Origin: Candidatus Poribacteria bacterium
GTDB lineage: Bacteria; Poribacteria; WGA-4E; WGA-3G
Direction of reading: 5' to 3'
NCBI GenBank assembly: GCA_009839745.1
Contig: VXPE01000124.1
Span: 1 to 57,642 of the forward strand
Length of the DNA stretch: 57,642 nucleotides
A model generated the notes under the pieces. The model was not told the DNA's origin. It ran no database searches and worked only from the letters and a program-made list of their open reading frames with translations. Below, piece by piece: positions 2,503 through 13,672 of this stretch (positions are counted from its first letter, which is position 1; every line of letters begins with the position of its first letter). A program made the position numbers and the translations under genes.

Positions 2503-3945
2503 TCAGGTGCGTGGGGGGCGTTTCCGGAGCCGTTTCATCCATCTTTGCGCCTTTGTGATGTTGGTGTCAAACGGTTCTTTCATCTCAAAGTATTCTGTGT
2601 GTCCTGCATATATTTGATGCCAGTCAACAATACAAGGCATTCGGTTTTGGGTGAGGGTCCGCATCAGGAATGCCCGAACCTTGGCACGGGTATCTTGGGG
2701 TGCGTTGTCAATAGCGTGCTGAATGTGTTCATCGGTGACAACCCGCTGCATGTGTCCCTGGGCCTCCAAGGCGTAGTAGAGTCCGCTTTCCGTATGGATG
2801 TTATGATATTCTAAATCTTGACTTTTAATCCAAGGATCCTCCCAATCTAATTTCTCTTCATCAATGAAGGCTTCGAGCAGCCATTTCTTTGCCGCCCAAT
2901 CGACGCGATCAATAACATTTAGCCACCCGTCTTCGAGGTCATCAAGGATCGACTCCCATGCCGCAAGCACCCATTCGGTTTCCTCGTCCCGTTCGGTAAT
3001 CAAAGCCTGAACGAAGTTAAGATACTCTCTCTGTAAATCAACAGCAGAGATCGTTTTTCCCGATTTCAGTTCGACGCGCCACGTGAAGGTATTATCGCGT
3101 GAGATGTGCCGGATCGCGTAGACGGGATCCGCGAGTTCGAAACCCGGGAGGGGCAATTTTTCGCCATGCATGTCGTGGAATGTTTCAATAGCAGAGAGCA
3201 AAAGTGCAGTCGTGCCTACCTTCAGGGCGGTTGCGTATTCTGACATATTGGAATCGCCAACGAGAAGATGGAGGCGCCGGTATTTTGTGTAATCGCTGAG
3301 GGGTTCGTCTCGTGTATTGATGATGGCGCGGCTGAACTGGATCCATTCGTATATTTCAGTGACGATGTGATCGGCGCGCTGCGAGATTTGATAGTATTGA
3401 TGCTCGGCAAGTTCGTCGTGAAAATCACCGAATTCAATCATTTCATCGTAAGCCCCGACTCTGCCCGTCCCTGCGTAAATTTGGCGTGTAACGAAGAAGG
3501 GCATAAGTGTCGGGATGACAACACGGTAAAAGGGAACGTCCCGACTGATTTGGAAGTTTTCGTGACATCCGAAGGTTGCACCCGTAAAATGATCAATATT
3601 ATTTTTGAAAAACGCCGTGGGTAACCCTGTATCCGTGAGGATATTGTTGATGACATGTTCGATGGCTTTATCGTAAGCGATAAGGTCAAAGAGTGTGCCA
3701 CATTCAGGGGTCGCATACTCCAGATGCCCCATATCGATGTAGAGCCGCCCACCATTGTATAGAAACCCGCCGTTGCCTGGGGGTTCGCCCCAGTCCCGGT
3801 AGTGGATATCCCGAAGACCGAGTTCCAACACATCGAAGACGTAATCTCGGACGCGCGCCGCAACCCCTTCAGAGGTCCCACGAACCCGTTCGGTATCCGT
3901 CATGCACCCAAATTCAGTTTCGATTCCAAAAATTCTTTTCTTCAT
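2503..3945 (-). CDS. pafA: PafA-type UBact/Pup ligase
   Basis: Glutamine-synthetase-fold ligase that joins the C-terminal Glu of the small modifier to substrate lysines using ATP. The protein has 480 residues. The N-terminus IFGIETEFG carries the Mg-binding glutamates, and LYIDMGHLEYATPEC holds the likely catalytic Asp71. The C-terminal domain (CIVDWHQIYAG, EPFDTN) resembles mycobacterial PafA (VDWVHL, KDPF) and not Dop, and the Dop-specific loop is absent. An in-frame start 16 codons upstream is less likely, because its first residues (LRKVKLKIRKVKLK) only translate the repeat. From ATG at 3945 the signal GTAAGG is about 10 bases away and lies in that repeat. Last gene of the proteasome operon. 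Confidence 0.93.
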   Translation of the reverse strand: MKKRIFGIETEFGCMTDTERVRGTSEGVAARVRDYVFDVLELGLRDIHYRDWGEPPGNGGFLYNGGRLYIDMGHLEYATPECGTLFDLIAYDKAIEHVINNILTDTGLPTAFFKNNIDHFTGATFGCHENFQISRDVPFYRVVIPTLMPFFVTRQIYAGTGRVGAYDEMIEFGDFHDELAEHQYYQISQRADHIVTEIYEWIQFSRAIINTRDEPLSDYTKYRRLHLLVGDSNMSEYATALKVGTTALLLSAIETFHDMHGEKLPLPGFELADPVYAIRHISRDNTFTWRVELKSGKTISAVDLQREYLNFVQALITERDEETEWVLAAWESILDDLEDGWLNVIDRVDWAAKKWLLEAFIDEEKLDWEDPWIKSQDLEYHNIHTESGLYYALEAQGHMQRVVTDEHIQHAIDNAPQDTRAKVRAFLMRTLTQNRMPCIVDWHQIYAGHTEYFEMKEPFDTNITKAQRWMKRLRKRPPRT

Positions 3946-3985
3946 TTTTAATTTTACCTTACGGATTTTTAATTTTACCTTGCGG
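3946..3985 (-). repeat. RBS-carrying repeat module, duplicated, before pafA
   Basis: Two tandem copies (minus strand) of C(C/T)GYAAGGTAAAATTAAAAA, the right-hand module of the interspersed repeat family, directly joined to the pafA ATG. The inner copy provides AAGG and an A/T spacer, so the repeat serves as translation start region. The upstream part (3986-4025) has TTTGATAGTCCAAACG, resembling the middle of other copies. Confidence 0.8.
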
Positions 3986-4078
3986 AGGAACAACGGGCGT
4001 TTGGACTATCAAATGCGTTCCTTAAAACCGCCTGAGCCGTTGTTGCAGGCTACAGGTTGGTAGAAAAAGGAAAAGAAA

Positions 4079-4849
4079 TTATGGGAGGGCAGTTTCAATT
4101 TCCTGAGAGGTTAGCAGCCGAAATTTACTCGTTCCGCGTTGGGTTGTCTCCAAAACCCCTGCTTCAATTTCACCATCTTCTCGTGCAAGCTTGATAATTT
4201 CGTGCATCTGGGAAGTATCTATCTGGGTGTCCTCCGATTCGGCTTCCTCCGGTTCCCGTGAACTCAATTCTCTACCGACTGCCCACGCTTCTAAACCCAA
4301 CTGGAGGGCAGCGGCTAAATCTCTGTCGGCATCTGTAGAAGCCGTCGCGAGATAGTTTTGCATTCCCGTCTCGATGGCTTCTGTTCCGCCGATAACGGTA
4401 GCGGTTGTGTCTGTTCGGACGTTCCCGTCGTAGTTGATACAGGTAAAACGGTTTTTACCGTCTGTGCTGCCGAGTTCAGCGAGCAACATTTTAATGATAT
4501 ACGCTTCACCGACAATGGACTCGAACGCTTGTTTAAAGGTATGTGCTAAAACGAAGTTCGTGAGTCGGTGTAGGTTGACATCTTCGGTGGCATTTTGGAA
4601 ACCTTGGACGCTGGCGGTATCGGTCACAAGCATTCGGAGGCGTTCAATATCGGCGGGATGTCCGATTGCGGAGAGTGCGATTCGGTCATGCACTTCAAAA
4701 ATTTTGCGTTGTCCTCTACCAATCGTGAGGAGTACCATGCCTTGGTTATAGGTAAGCCCTACAACGGGACTTCCGACCCGAAGTTGGTCTTCAATGTAAT
4801 CTCGTCGGTCTTGAATCGCTTCTATCCAGCGATACGGTTCATCTCGCAT
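4079..4849 (-). CDS. prcA: Proteasome alpha subunit PrcA
   Basis: 256 residues. Alpha-type 20S proteasome subunit forming the outer heptameric ring and gate. The N-terminal helix region (YRWIEAIQDRRDYIEDQL), the core strand SPVVGLTYNQGMVLLTIG, and IFEVHDRIALSAIGHPAD (equivalent of the actinobacterial 'YDRIAFAAVG' strand) are seen; no catalytic N-terminal threonine is expected or seen. The acidic linker (EPEEAESEDTQ) near residues 205-215 resembles other bacterial alpha subunits. The gene lies between prcB and pafA. Its translation start is supplied by tandem repeat modules (CCGCAAGGAACAATTAAAAA, CCGCAAGGAAAGTTAAAAG) ending at the ATG. Confidence 0.92.
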   Translation of the reverse strand: MRDEPYRWIEAIQDRRDYIEDQLRVGSPVVGLTYNQGMVLLTIGRGQRKIFEVHDRIALSAIGHPADIERLRMLVTDTASVQGFQNATEDVNLHRLTNFVLAHTFKQAFESIVGEAYIIKMLLAELGSTDGKNRFTCINYDGNVRTDTTATVIGGTEAIETGMQNYLATASTDADRDLAAALQLGLEAWAVGRELSSREPEEAESEDTQIDTSQMHEIIKLAREDGEIEAGVLETTQRGTSKFRLLTSQEIETALP

Positions 4850-5133: not shown

Positions 5134-5982
5134 CTAAACAGTCTCTCCGTCGGGTTGTGCTTCAGCGTAACAGGTTTCCAATTCATCGTCAGGAATATCT
5201 TCAACGCCGGTGCGTGTCACAGTTTTGATATTTGGGAATATTTGTGCCCTTGCATTGTAACCGCTTGTTGCGGCATCGTACTCGCTGGCTGTGTCCAAAA
5301 GGCGTAAGATCGTGATGGTCGCCTGCCGCTCATCCATCTCCCGCAAGGGGGTATCACCGAATCGAGAGAGATAGCGTAAAACGCCGCGGATCCAGATGGA
5401 GCCGGAACCGGTCGTGGCAAAATTGACGTTTTCAAAATGTGCACCGAGTGCGTCATAGAAGAAAATCTTGCCGCCATTCTTGTCATCAGCGGTATTCAAA
5501 TCGTAGAGTGCAAAGATCGGGATAACGCCCCCGATACCTTGAAGTGCCATCGGCAGATTCTCCCGGATGAGCCGCGATAGCATTCGGAGCTTGCCTTCAA
5601 GACTCAATTCTTGGAGCTGGCTGCGGCGAAAGTATTGAAACGAATGCTCCAATATTCGGGCGATCTCATAAGCGATTGCGGGTGAACCTGAAATAGCGAG
5701 CACAGAATGCCTATCAATCTGTAAAACCTTCTCTGCGCGATCATAGATGACAGAAGTGCCAGCGGTGGCACGCCGGTCACCTGCGATCATAACACCCTCT
5801 CGGTAACGAACAGCAACAACGGTTGTGCTATGTGCTATCTCAATGTCAGCACCGTGCTGTGATGTTTCCGACGGCACATCTATTGTCAAAGGATAGTTTG
5901 CTTGTTTTAAAAGACTGAGGAAATCCCCTTTATGGTTATCGCTTGATTTAACGCTTTGCGAATTATTAAAAAAAGCGTTCAT
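5134..5982 (-). CDS. prcB: Proteasome beta subunit PrcB
   Basis: Catalytic subunit of the 20S core, an N-terminal threonine hydrolase. 282 residues with a long propeptide; processing is expected between Ser52 and Thr53 in the motif AHSTTVVAV, where actinobacterial PrcB has HGTT. With Thr53 as residue 1, the family's Asp17 and Lys33 fall on Asp69 (AGDRRAT) and Lys85 (DRAEKVLQ), both present, so the enzyme should be active. SGSPA and GSGS turns are typical. The ATG overlaps the UBact stop (TAATG), suggesting translational coupling. The usual Gly at -1 is replaced by Ser. Confidence 0.95.
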   Translation of the reverse strand: MNAFFNNSQSVKSSDNHKGDFLSLLKQANYPLTIDVPSETSQHGADIEIAHSTTVVAVRYREGVMIAGDRRATAGTSVIYDRAEKVLQIDRHSVLAISGSPAIAYEIARILEHSFQYFRRSQLQELSLEGKLRMLSRLIRENLPMALQGIGGVIPIFALYDLNTADDKNGGKIFFYDALGAHFENVNFATTGSGSIWIRGVLRYLSRFGDTPLREMDERQATITILRLLDTASEYDAATSGYNARAQIFPNIKTVTRTGVEDIPDDELETCYAEAQPDGETV

Positions 5983-6179
5983 TACTCCCCCGTTCTTTGG
6001 CGATACCGTCTGGACTGATCTTTGTCAACACGGCGCATCCGTTTGAGCAGTTCTTGTGTATCGGGCCGGCTGACTTTCTGTCTTTTGGGTCCCTCGTTAT
6101 CACTATCACCATCACCGGGACCGATGGGTTTGGTGTCCCTTTGTTTCCGTTCAAGTTGAGCAATCATTTTGGCTGTCAT
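5982..6179 (-). CDS. UBact, Pup-like protein modifier
   Basis: Sixty-five residues, lysine/arginine- and glycine-rich, with an intrinsically disordered N-terminal half (PIGPGDGDSDNEGP) and the conserved C-terminus RRYRQRTGE. This matches UBact, the Gram-negative counterpart of actinobacterial Pup. Here the last residue is already Glu, so it can be ligated through its gamma-carboxylate without prior deamidation by Dop. The RBS AAGGAGACATAAA precedes the ATG, and dop ends 15 bases upstream. A longer frame in another register over the same bases is a shadow. The order Mpa-Dop-UBact-PrcB-PrcA-PafA makes the call firm. Confidence 0.95.
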   Translation of the reverse strand: MTAKMIAQLERKQRDTKPIGPGDGDSDNEGPKRQKVSRPDTQELLKRMRRVDKDQSRRYRQRTGE

Positions 6180-6194
6180 TTTATGTCTCCTTTT

Positions 6195-7721
6195 TTATAG
6201 ATGCAACTTCTCAATGAGCGTCTCAACGGTTGGCGATTGATCGAGCACCTCGTTATATTGGCGTGCGATCGCCGCATCCGCGAGGGCATTTAGATTGACT
6301 TCGCGGGTGCGTCCGTTTACAGTGAAGGTAATACTATCCCACTGTATCGCCTTTATGGCACTGCTGAATCGATCTACAGCGCGTCCGCGGAAGTATGCCC
6401 GTGTGTCAGCAGGTGGATTATGGAGGGCGGCATCAATCTGTTCGTCCGTGACGACGCGCCGCATCGGAATCCCATAGTATAACCCTTCATCAAGATCGAT
6501 GTTGTGATATTCTAAATCCAAACTTTGGAGCCATGGGTCGTCCCAGGCGACTCCCTCTTCCTCAGCAAACGTTTCAAGCAACCATTTTTTCGCGACCCAA
6601 TCCAGTCGATCCGTGAGCGACATTGGGTCCGCCTCAAGGGTGTTGAGGGTATCCTCCCACTCGGTGAGCACCCAGTCGGTTTCAGGGAGGAACGAGGTTA
6701 CCTCGCTATTGCTAAGATACTTCTGTGCGAGGGCAAGATACTCACGTTGATGGTCGATGGCGGACATTGTTTTCCCTTCCGCCGTCATTACTATCCAACG
6801 ATACGTCTGGTCATGCGATACAGTTTTGATGGTATCAATGGGGTTGACGAGTGCTAAGTGCTCTGGGATCCGTCGTTGTTCAATCAAGGTAATCACAAGT
6901 GCTGTCGTGCCGACCTTGAGTGCCGTTGCGTATTCGGACATATTCGCATCGCCCGCGATGCCGTGTAACCTACGATATTTAGAGGCATCCGCATGCGGTT
7001 CATCTCGCGTGTTGACGATAGGACGGTTATGCATGGTATCCACACTCGCCTCCACGTGAAAGAAATCGGATCTTTGAGATAACTGGTAGTGTCCTGGGGT
7101 CGCGAGTCCGGCTTCTGTTTCAATGCCGATCTTTCCTGCGCCTGCGAAGATCTGGCGTGTAATAAAGAACGGCATGATACCTTGCTTAAGCGTTTCAAAC
7201 GGTACTTCGCGTGCCATCAGGTAGTTATCGTGGCACCCGTAACTATGCCCATGGAAATCGGTATTATTTTTGTATAAAAGCACCCGTCTTCCGAGTTTCT
7301 GACTGCGTGTTTCGGCACACCGTTGAAGGATGCGTTCGCCGGCTTTATCGTGTGCGACGAGGTCGAAGAGACGACTGCATTCAGGCGTTGAATACTCCGG
7401 GTGTGCGTGGTCGTTGTAGAGCCGTGCCCCGTTAGCGAGGATGTGATCGCTTTTGATTTCAGCAAAAGAGAGCCGTTCTTTAAGATTGCGGTTCCGGTCG
7501 CGTTCTTCCTCTTCCTTCTCATCAGGGTGATTGGAGAGGGCATTCGCCCGAAAGCCGCGTTCATCTCGAAACGGGTCCTCGCCGCGGTAGTCCCACACGG
7601 GTCGAAAATCTTCCTGTCGGTAGCTTTTTATGAGCTCAATAGATTGCTTGACGGCATCAAGGTGCGCTTCATTTTCGAGCGTTATTCCGTATTCAGTTTC
7701 GATTCCAAAAAGTCTTTCCAT
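6195..7721 (-). CDS. dop: Dop-type depupylase / deamidase
   Basis: 508-residue paralogue of PafA that removes the modifier from substrates and, in Pup systems ending in Gln, deamidates it. Start MERLFGIETEYG; LYNDHAHPEYSTPEC contains the likely nucleophilic or base Asp104. The insertion at about residues 41-95 (WDYRGEDPFRDERGF and a charged stretch) corresponds to the 'Dop loop' absent from PafA. The C-terminus AYFRGRAVDRFSSAI...WDSITF resembles mycobacterial Dop. Because UBact ends in Glu, only the depupylase function should be needed. It lies between the ATPase and UBact genes. Confidence 0.94.
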   Translation of the reverse strand: MERLFGIETEYGITLENEAHLDAVKQSIELIKSYRQEDFRPVWDYRGEDPFRDERGFRANALSNHPDEKEEEERDRNRNLKERLSFAEIKSDHILANGARLYNDHAHPEYSTPECSRLFDLVAHDKAGERILQRCAETRSQKLGRRVLLYKNNTDFHGHSYGCHDNYLMAREVPFETLKQGIMPFFITRQIFAGAGKIGIETEAGLATPGHYQLSQRSDFFHVEASVDTMHNRPIVNTRDEPHADASKYRRLHGIAGDANMSEYATALKVGTTALVITLIEQRRIPEHLALVNPIDTIKTVSHDQTYRWIVMTAEGKTMSAIDHQREYLALAQKYLSNSEVTSFLPETDWVLTEWEDTLNTLEADPMSLTDRLDWVAKKWLLETFAEEEGVAWDDPWLQSLDLEYHNIDLDEGLYYGIPMRRVVTDEQIDAALHNPPADTRAYFRGRAVDRFSSAIKAIQWDSITFTVNGRTREVNLNALADAAIARQYNEVLDQSPTVETLIEKLHL

Positions 7722-7831: not shown

Positions 7832-7914
7832 TAGCCCGTAATGAAATGGAGAGCGGATATACGGAGAGGCTCGTTTTTTATTCACCTCACCGAACCGCAC
7901 GGAAAAATTAAATA
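7832..7914 (+). repeat. Full-length repeat overlapping the 3' end of the ATPase gene
   Basis: Plus-strand order: TAGCCCGTAATGAAATGGAG, GGATATACGGAGAGG, CACCTCACCGAACCGCACGG, AAAAATTAAATAA. It lies opposite in orientation to the operon, and the last bases (7908-7914) form the stop codon and the last codon(s) of the mpa gene. Strong similarity to the copy inside the lipid kinase gene (13164-13251). Confidence 0.8.
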
Positions 7915-9728
7915 ACGCGTGATCCGGAGGCTTTGCGTCGCTCCTGTTTCTCCGCCTTGATAGGTGTAACTTTGACAACATTCGCTGGATCGTAATCAAG
8001 GAGTTTGAGCCAGTCTTCAGTCGCCTCAGTCGGCGGGAAGATTTCGCTTTCACCATATTCTGCTGCGAGAGCATTTAACAGGTCGGCGCGTGTAATACCA
8101 CTTTCCTTCTCTGGGTTCTGAATCGCACGTTTGAGTGCGGATTCCTTCGCCCGCTGCACAATCGACTCAATAATCGCCCCGCTGCAGAGATGTCCTTTAT
8201 AGAGGATATCACGTCTGCCACTCCTGAGAGACACTTCAAGGAATCGGTTGTCTTCGTCTTCACGGAACATTTCATCAACGACCTGTGCGATAAGATCTGC
8301 AACGGCTTTCTCAGCCGGGATAACTTCAGGCGGTGTTTCACCCTTTCCTGTTTCGGTTTCCTTCTCCGCATCCAAGAGTGAAGCGATGGGAAGTTCAGGA
8401 GTGAGATAGATACGGAAGATATCCTTTGCAGCCTCTGCATCTGGACGTGTTACTTTAATCTTTCTATCAATGCGCCCTGGACGTAAAATGGCAGGATCAA
8501 TCAAATCAGGACGGTTTGTCGCTAAAATAATGACGACATCCTGCAGTGATTCAATACCATCCATCTCTGCACAAAACATCGGGACGAGTGTATTCGAGAT
8601 ACTGTGGGATCTGAGTGCCCGACGGGTCCCCAGTATTGACTCGGCTTCATCGATAAAGACGAAAGCCAGTTTGCCATCCTCTTTTTTCTCACGGGCGATC
8701 TGAAAAATTTCTCGCACCTTCCGCTCGGATTCGCCGAGCCACATGTTGAGAATCTCGGGTCCCTTGATATGTAAGAAACAGCCTTCAACATCCTCGCCGC
8801 TTTCCCTTCGGAGCCGCTGGGTTAAATTGTAAGCCGTCGCCTTGCCAATGAGCGTTTTTCCACAGCCTGGAGGTCCGTGGAGCAGGAAACCTTTCGGTGC
8901 GCTATATTGGAACCGTTCAAAAAGTTCGGGGTGCAGGATCGGCAGTTCAATCGTGTCCTTAATGCGTTGGATAGTTTCCTCAAGCCCGCCGACCTTTGAC
9001 CAGGGTATATTCGGGACCGCCTCAAGCGCGTAAGCGTCTGTCTCTTTCGCGGCGATATGTTCAAGGGCGACACGGAAATTGGAGTCAATCCGCACCTCAT
9101 CACCGGGCTTCAGTTTTTCATCTACGAGGTCCGTGGAGCGTTCAAGGATGACGGTTTGAGCGTTCGGTTCTTGACCGATCCGGAGCCGTCCATCCGGCAT
9201 GACATCGGCGATCTTTGCAATGGGACCTGCATCGTTGTATCCGAGTTCACCGACAACGACAAAAGCGTCGTTCAGTAGGATGCTGAACCCCTTTTTAAGG
9301 TTGGACGCTTCCAGTTCCGGATCAATATTCGCATAGTATTCGGAGCCACCGACGATAACGCGGGCAATGTCTTCTTTGGGCAATCCGAGCAAGGTTCCGA
9401 TCCGGTTCGCCGGTGCAGTGAGTTTTTCAATCTGCTCCTCCATTTCGGCGTGGATACGGAGTGCCTCTTGCTGAATGGCACGGACCCTCTCCTGAAATTC
9501 ACCTTCATCGCTGAGAATAGAGCGACGGAGTTCCATGAGCCAGCGACGGCGCCGGTCATCTACCGGGGTCTCGGCGATAATGTGGTGAATTAACTGCAAG
9601 GAATAGCCAGAACCCATTGCCTCCTCTTCAGGAGTGAGTTCCTCTTCAAGTTCCTCGTCATCTTCAATAAACAGGTCGTTCCCATCGGGACCTGGACCCG
9701 CAGTTCTACGATTCTTCTTATCGTACAT
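7908..9728 (-). CDS. mpa: Proteasomal AAA+ unfoldase Mpa/ARC
   Basis: 606-residue ring ATPase that binds the modifier and feeds conjugates into the proteasome. Order: acidic N-terminal tail (1-38), a longer-than-usual segment to about 78, coiled coil (about 78-105, for UBact binding), OB-type domains (about 110-230), then the AAA+ module with Walker A GPPGCGKT (285-292), pore loop region KGPEILNMWLGESER, Walker B FVFIDEAE (about 357-362) and arginine-finger region NRPDLIDPAILRPGRID. RBS GAGGAG before ATG 9728. Oddity: it ends KASGSRVI and lacks the gate-opening penultimate Tyr (QYL/HbYX) of Mpa; its last codon(s) and stop lie in an inserted repeat. First gene of the operon. Confidence 0.94.
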   Translation of the reverse strand: MYDKKNRRTAGPGPDGNDLFIEDDEELEEELTPEEEAMGSGYSLQLIHHIIAETPVDDRRRRWLMELRRSILSDEGEFQERVRAIQQEALRIHAEMEEQIEKLTAPANRIGTLLGLPKEDIARVIVGGSEYYANIDPELEASNLKKGFSILLNDAFVVVGELGYNDAGPIAKIADVMPDGRLRIGQEPNAQTVILERSTDLVDEKLKPGDEVRIDSNFRVALEHIAAKETDAYALEAVPNIPWSKVGGLEETIQRIKDTIELPILHPELFERFQYSAPKGFLLHGPPGCGKTLIGKATAYNLTQRLRRESGEDVEGCFLHIKGPEILNMWLGESERKVREIFQIAREKKEDGKLAFVFIDEAESILGTRRALRSHSISNTLVPMFCAEMDGIESLQDVVIILATNRPDLIDPAILRPGRIDRKIKVTRPDAEAAKDIFRIYLTPELPIASLLDAEKETETGKGETPPEVIPAEKAVADLIAQVVDEMFREDEDNRFLEVSLRSGRRDILYKGHLCSGAIIESIVQRAKESALKRAIQNPEKESGITRADLLNALAAEYGESEIFPPTEATEDWLKLLDYDPANVVKVTPIKAEKQERRKASGSRVI

Positions 9729-12661: not shown

Positions 12662-13672
12662 TCATGGCACTGTGGGTGCCATTACCGCAAGCCCGTGCTT
12701 GATGATCTCAATTGTGGCAGGGGTTTCGCACATCGGCTCGCCATCGGCATACAGCAGCATGGGGGTATCCGTCTCAATTGTTAAAGTGCGGGTCTGGTGC
12801 ATGGATACGGCAGGATGTGAAACGTGTCCCCCCCAGAAAAGTGTCACCAGTAGCCGTAACACCGTTAGAGAGGACACTGGACGGATAATACAAACATCGA
12901 AAAGTCCATCGTCGATGCGAGCCTTCGGCACAATCTGAAACCCACCCCCGTATCGATTTGTGATGCCGGTCGCAGCGAGGAGGAGGGGTCCCTCATGGAC
13001 ACCAAAATCGCCTTCAAGACGGACGAACGGCGGGTCGTAATAGAAAAGCGTCTCTACGGCTGCGTAAGCATAGGAGGCAGTGCCTGCAAACAGCGGTGTG
13101 CCCTTCGCCGCCCGACGACTCACCTCCGTATCGTAACCGCAAGTGGCGATGGTAATGAAGTAGTTTTTAATTTTTCCTTGCGGTTCGGTCGGTGAGGTTT
13201 GGACATTGAAGCACCTTTCCGTAGATCCTCCCTCCATTTCATTACGGGCTACATCATCTGGATTAACAGTTGACTGCTGGTTGCTATTCTGGTAGCAACA
13301 TCCTAAATCCACACGGATAGGTGTGCCAGATAAGAGGGTTGCGATTGCGACTTCCGGTTTCAGCGGCACACCTATCGCAGCTGCAAAATCGTTGCCACGA
13401 CCACACGGGAGCACACCCAAGGTTACATCGGGAACGGTTGCAATACCATTGACGACTTCGTGGAGTGTTCCATCACCTCCGCACGCAATTACGGATCGGA
13501 TGCCATCGGAGACGGCTTCTTGTGCGAAACGCTTGGCATCGCCGGATGCCGAAGTGAAGGTCAATTGTCCCTGAGCACCAGATTCAGTGAGCGCAGTATA
13601 CGCCTGTTCAGCAATGCTTTTCGCGTGTCCTTTACCTGAAATGGGGTTTGCAATGAGAATAAAATTGTTCAT
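12662..13672 (-). CDS. Diacylglycerol kinase-type lipid kinase (YegS/DgkB family)
   Basis: Phosphorylates a lipid alcohol (diacylglycerol or similar) at the membrane. 336 residues: the N-terminus NFILIANPISGKG and CGGDGTLHEVVNG are the nucleotide-binding motifs; GVLPCGRGNDFAAAIG and a C-terminal beta domain (LYADGEPM) follow. About 30-40 residues longer than usual. The excess lies between about residues 140 and 180, where the reading frame crosses a complete copy of the interspersed repeat (13164-13251) and reads ARNEMEGGSTERCFN and PTEPQGKIKNYF. The ATG overlaps the subtilase stop (ATGA), so the two are coupled. Confidence 0.85.
   Translation of the reverse strand: MNNFILIANPISGKGHAKSIAEQAYTALTESGAQGQLTFTSASGDAKRFAQEAVSDGIRSVIACGGDGTLHEVVNGIATVPDVTLGVLPCGRGNDFAAAIGVPLKPEVAIATLLSGTPIRVDLGCCYQNSNQQSTVNPDDVARNEMEGGSTERCFNVQTSPTEPQGKIKNYFITIATCGYDTEVSRRAAKGTPLFAGTASYAYAAVETLFYYDPPFVRLEGDFGVHEGPLLLAATGITNRYGGGFQIVPKARIDDGLFDVCIIRPVSSLTVLRLLVTLFWGGHVSHPAVSMHQTRTLTIETDTPMLLYADGEPMCETPATIEIIKHGLAVMAPTVP
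13164..13251 (-). repeat. Full-length repeat inserted in frame in the lipid kinase gene
   Basis: Minus strand: GTAGCCCGTAATGAAATGGA, GGATCTACGGAAAGG, CCGAACCGCAAGGAAAAATT, AAAAA. About 88 bases with high similarity to the copy at 7832-7914. The kinase frame stays open through it and enters and leaves in register. Confidence 0.85.

Follow-up and report, generated by a model that had tools for sequence, protein, structure and literature searches.

ATPases are generally held to open 20S proteasomes by means of a C-terminal HbYX or QYL tail, which serves as the key. In the archaeal 20S proteasome, the penultimate tyrosine of the tail bonds to the backbone of G19 and lies sandwiched between L81 and K33; the terminal carboxylate rests on K66 (PMC10349882, PMC12352868). 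The archaeal gate can also be opened by L81Y or V24Y/F alone (PMC10349882, PMC12352868), and a conserved lysine of the alpha subunit has been described (PMC12288473). Mycobacterial Mpa, which ends in GQYL, additionally uses a beta-grasp hairpin to contact the alpha ring (PMC8755798). PA26-type (11S) activators dock without a penultimate tyrosine (PMC10349882), so that this residue is dispensable for docking. Each of these elements, i.e. Mpa-type ATPases with QYL, HbYX gating, PA26-type tails, and the modifiers UBact and Pup, is already known. Within the literature searched, which covered few subscription papers, we found no description of the tail of a UBact ATPase, of an altered alpha pocket or of UBact and Pup occurring together in Poribacteria, and text searches for UBact returned passing mentions only.

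Here, we describe a proteasomal ATPase of a Candidatus Poribacteria bacterium encoded on a stretch of 57,642 nucleotides (GCA_009839745.1, contig VXPE01000124.1), referred to below as the window.

A UBact operon encodes an Mpa-type ATPase lacking the penultimate tyrosine

The window harbors a UBact operon in which one modifier gene (PF20513) lies beside genes for two 20S subunits (PF00227) and two ligase-family proteins (PF03136). The operon shares its modifier, its ligase family and its 20S and ATPase genes with the UBact system of Gram-negative bacteria (PF20513). The ATPase, here called type A, combines proteasomal OB domains with an AAA domain and is homologous to Mpa/ARC over most of its length; its best solved relatives are the Mpa structures 5kwa and 7px9 (E about 1e-102). 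It resembles mycobacterial Mpa/ARC (5kwa, 7px9; PMC8755798) in its OB/AAA/beta-grasp layout and in sharing an operon with 20S and Pup-ligase family genes, but differs at its C-terminus. The open reading frame translates into a protein ending in RRKASGSRVI, which bears out the preliminary description of a GSRVI end without a gate-opening tyrosine motif, and this aliphatic Val/Ile end takes the place of the GQYL of Mpa. Two internal segments of type A ATPases differ as well: the linker at residues 106-109 reads PANR (PP in Mpa and in the type B paralog described below), and the pore loop at residues 328-333 is NMWLGE, with a tryptophan, instead of NKFVGE, as in Mpa, or NKYVGE.

Table 1. Features of the UBact operon, the adjoining repeat and the second proteasome locus (positions refer to the window unless a locus is named).
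Feature	Position	Strand	Basis
Second Pup_ligase-family protein (PafA or Dop type)	2503-3993	-	PF03136
PrcA1, proteasome alpha subunit; Lys49, Phe51, His64-Pro65, Gly26-Ser27-Pro28; no Pro17-type turn	4079-4849	-	PF00227, alignments
PrcB1, UBact-system proteasome beta subunit	5134-5982	-	PF00227
UBact modifier, 65 aa, end RYRQRTGE	5982-6179	-	PF20513, E 3.9e-18
Pup_ligase-family protein (PafA or Dop type)	6195-7721	-	PF03136
Dispersed repeat copy abutting the ATPase stop; bystander	about 7832-7912		other copies in the window; genome-wide count
Stop codon TAA of the type A ATPase gene	7908-7910 (+ strand TTA)	-	sequence; relatives at 98-99% identity that lack the repeat here have TAG
Codons of C-terminal GSRVI; Val-Ile end is the conserved tail	7911-7925	-	translation; 106 orthologs
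UBact-type proteasomal AAA ATPase (type A), 606 aa	7908-9728	-	Pfam AAA, Prot_ATP_ID_OB_N, OB_C
Complete second Pup-proteasome locus	L191:5452-14037 (G000:C94, about 11.4-20.0 kb)		PF05639, PF03136 x2, PF00227 x2, AAA + proteasomal OB

A dispersed repeat abuts the stop codon and is a bystander

The preliminary description had placed an inverted repeat at 7832-7914, with the stop codon and the last codon(s) of the ATPase gene inside its end. The repeat is real and belongs to a dispersed family. One of its ends gave 243 matches in the 5.04 Mb genome, against 0 for a reversed control pattern, and further copies lie in the window, for example on the opposite strand at 13166-13251 (78% identical). 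No local inverted repeat was found at about 7832-7912, and the term "inverted" holds only relative to the other copies. The minus-strand 3' end of the gene reads GGA TCA CGC GTT ATT TAA, with the last Ile codon at plus-strand positions 7911-7913; the overlap comprises the stop codon, as described, and at most two bases of this Ile codon. The copy at 13166-13251 lies in frame within a diacylglycerol-kinase-like open reading frame (12662-13672), to which it adds the segment ARNEMEGGSTERCF...PQGKIKN.

The overlap, small as it is, could be read as the trace of a repeat insertion into the gene's 3' end that removed a native QYL/HbYX end and changed the coupling to PrcA, one of the two alternatives given in the preliminary description. 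We consider the chance of this negligible. Among 29 same-genus orthologs fetched, 28 end in -SRVI and one (L011) in -ARVI, despite widely differing sequence after the stop. The tail codons of these orthologs vary silently (CGC/CGT/CGA/CGG, GTT/GTC/GTG, ATT/ATC) with the residues unchanged. The closest relatives, L004 (99% identical) and L005 (98%), have no repeat at the stop and read CGC GTT ATT TAG followed by different DNA, where the window has ATT TAA; in L007, the stop lies only a few bases from the next gene. Relatives lacking the repeat at this place (e.g. L007, L011, L021) have SRVI-like ends, which is the observation that the preliminary description itself had named as speaking against replacement. 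The last codon ATT and the first two stop-codon bases, TA, also occur in relatives that lack the repeat here, and from this codon-level comparison the repeat would have contributed no more than the final base of the stop codon. Beyond the genus, 106 orthologs across several phyla end in aliphatic pairs. A search of the downstream minus strand for a lost HbYX-coding end, suggested earlier, was likewise negative: in frame 3' of the stop there is no tyrosine-containing end, and readthrough gives just FFRAVR before the next stop. Both a repeat-truncated tail and a displaced HbYX end were thereby ruled out, and we regard the repeat as a bystander because orthologs without it at the stop keep the same end.

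The aliphatic tail is conserved behind a hypervariable linker

We compared the C-termini of 106 distinct type A orthologs from Poribacteria, Armatimonadota, Verrucomicrobiota and records labelled Latescibacterota/Gemmatimonadetes, as the preliminary description had advised. They were drawn from whole Candidatus Poribacteria genomes, from UBact loci or genomes labelled Latescibacterota, Gemmatimonadetes, Verrucomicrobiota or Armatimonadetes, and from an Armatimonadota sample. Nearly all of them end in two residues that are valine or isoleucine (I97/V8/L1 at the last position, entropy 0.46 bits; V80/I25/A1 at the one before, 0.86 bits), with an aromatic residue at position -2 in none of the 106 tails. 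The linker formed by residues -3 to -19, by comparison, is hypervariable (2.4-3.3 bits), and between a conserved DW and the C-terminus there are 31 to 36 residues. Such a pattern, with two conserved terminal residues behind a hypervariable linker of varying length, is the hallmark of a docking tail under selection. On these alignments, the best reading is that the tyrosine-less end is old, native and under selection rather than damaged. A predicted structure of the type A ATPase was of modest quality (pTM 0.43), and the low pLDDT of residues 593-606 is consistent with a flexible tail while being no evidence of docking.

The cognate alpha subunit differs around the tail pocket

We aligned 71 UBact-type and 10 Pup-type PrcA sequences with PrcA of M. 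tuberculosis (Mtb), the letters of the latter being taken from a PDB alignment. Positions (L81, V82, K66, Pro17) are numbered after the archaeal 20S alpha sequence, which served for orientation only and whose row is misaligned around K66. The equivalence of Mtb K52 and archaeal K66 was therefore based on the known conserved alpha lysine (PMC12288473) and a shared motif, and the archaeal row was not used.

This pocket lysine is invariant (71/71 UBact-type and 10/10 Pup-type sequences), and its surroundings differ between the two types. At archaeal position 81, a leucine in archaea, 69 of the 71 UBact-type subunits carry histidine, and at position 82, an archaeal valine, 64 of 71 carry proline; both residues are absent from all 10 Pup-type sequences. 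A phenylalanine follows two residues past the lysine in 69/71 UBact-type subunits. Positions 34-36 are Gly-Ser-Pro in the UBact type as opposed to Ala/Gly-Lys/Arg-Glu/Asp in the Pup type, and the segment from the N-terminal PY to the pocket lysine is shorter in the UBact type. The Pro17 turn is devoid of proline in every scorable UBact-type sequence (65/65), compared with SPEQ or SPDQ in 8/9 scorable Pup-type sequences and in Mtb. The conservation of an aliphatic tail over several phyla, together with a partner alpha subunit altered at matching places, supports the other possibility raised in the preliminary description, namely that UBact-type ATPases dock otherwise.

The tail need not be the main dock. 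The beta-grasp domain alone might hold the ATPase on PrcA1, with the gate opening by other means or leaking and the Val-Ile end being kept for stability or ring assembly. Mpa, too, contacts the alpha ring by its beta-grasp hairpin (PMC8755798), and conservation is strong in EDWLKL, a segment of the type A beta-grasp domain. This would, however, leave open why two terminal residues past a hypervariable linker are kept in all phyla sampled and why the carboxylate-binding lysine is invariant, and we consider it unlikely.

A second, Pup-type proteasome is encoded in the same genome

A paralog of the ATPase, type B, is encoded on another contig (C94) and is about 38% identical to type A. It belongs to a locus unlinked to the UBact operon that comprises all parts of a Pup system: an Mpa-like ATPase with the aromatic tail TFL, two PafA/Dop-family proteins, a Pup with a GG[EQ] end (QRGGQ), PrcB2 and PrcA2. 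Within this Pup operon, a D12 adenine methyltransferase gene and an R.HinP1I-like restriction gene are located between a PafA/Dop-family gene and Pup (L191:8861-10504). A Pup-like protein was present at the matching locus in 10/10 genomes looked at, and a search across Poribacteria recovered type B from nearly all of them. Compared with other UBact systems (PF20513), Poribacteria add a complete Pup system. The penultimate residue of type B was aromatic in 42/42 sequences (FL 30, YL 12; ends -QYL, -AYL or -TFL). In seven same-genus genomes (G048, G052, G054, G057, G076, G078, G082), the type B match contains one in-frame TGA, which is possibly confined to the part before a true start further downstream. 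One assembly, KW1-S15_112, has two separate UBact loci (JAPUJS010000023.1 and JAPUJS010000113.1).

In 23 UBact genomes searched outside Poribacteria, type A was the only Mpa-like ATPase found; 22 gave one strong match and one (G108) gave two, both type A. Conversely, five Poribacteria keep type B and lack type A as well as UBact and PrcB1 (G003, G004, G025, G031, G072). Some of these absences may be due to incomplete assemblies, but completeness reaches 95-96% in G004 and G025. In three further Poribacterial assemblies (G005, G063, G068), type A is missing and UBact, PrcB1 and type B are present, which may reflect assembly gaps.

In the eukaryotic Rpt1-6 ring, linker proline and HbYX coincide in part of the paralogs only, which sets Rpt2/3/5 apart from Rpt1/4/6. 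Types A and B recall this arrangement: the linker between coiled coil and OB domain reads [AS]PANR in A and APPNN in B, and the second proline and the aromatic tail are both found in B and neither in A. The two could form one mixed ring in Poribacteria, with HbYX and the conserved linker proline confined to part of the subunits. Subunits of such a ring would be mutually dependent, yet no B was found beside A in any genome searched outside Poribacteria, and B persists in the five Poribacteria without A, UBact and PrcB1. Unlike Rpt1-6, the Poribacterial paralogs are encoded in separate operons, each beside its own 20S genes, and each can exist alone. A mixed ring is very improbable on this evidence and was dropped in favor of two separate systems.

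Alternatively, type B with its canonical tail might drive PrcA1/PrcB1, leaving type A to a different peptidase or to none. Against this, type A is the sole ATPase of proteasomal type found in non-Poribacterial UBact genomes, and UBact and PrcB1 are also missing from five of the eight Poribacteria that have B and no A; the other three keep UBact and PrcB1, with assembly gaps as a possible reason for the missing A. We regard such a division of labor as very unlikely.

Discussion

The interpretation that we favor, and consider fairly probable, is that the tyrosine-less end is native and that the UBact ATPase docks by its conserved aliphatic tail into a re-built alpha pocket, with gating that does not follow the HbYX scheme. 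The type A ATPase would dock on its own 20S core, PrcA1/PrcB1, encoded in the same operon. The two branched aliphatic residues at the end of its flexible C-terminal tail would thread into pockets that lie between neighboring alpha subunits, and the invariant lysine there would hold the terminal carboxylate. The alpha ring appears re-built to fit: the Pro17 turn, a neighbor of the tyrosine-binding site in HbYX docking, is shortened and proline-less, and His-Pro at positions 81-82 would flank the inserted tail. From these two changes we infer that the tail would open the gate by a route other than the canonical tyrosine bridge.

A partial precedent is PA26 (PMC10349882), whose tail also lacks a penultimate tyrosine and still binds the alpha pocket, as the type A tail presumably does. 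PA26, however, does not belong to the ATPases, and its activation loops open the gate by acting on Pro17, whose turn is missing from UBact-type PrcA.

Since Poribacteria have in the same cell a second, canonical Pup proteasome with an aromatic-tailed ATPase, the two tail/pocket pairs probably keep the UBact and Pup proteasomes apart. More tentatively, these features may amount to a distinct gate code, in which a Val/Ile tail replaces HbYX, the alpha ring has taken over part of the tyrosine's role through His-Pro at 81-82 and the lost Pro17 turn, and Poribacteria run two mutually insulated tag-and-degrade proteasomes in one cell, one for UBact and one for Pup. The changes in tail and pocket coincide with a single deep divergence of UBact-type from Pup-type systems and therefore count as one correlated event, as opposed to repeated co-evolution, and by themselves do not prove co-evolution. 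The conserved tail and lysine could also serve assembly or another partner.

A proteasome lineage that lacks the tyrosine and the Pro17 turn and keeps the lysine constitutes a natural test of which contacts serve docking and which serve gating. In Poribacteria with both UBact and Pup proteasomes, moreover, the orthogonality of the two machines would be testable with parts from one organism.
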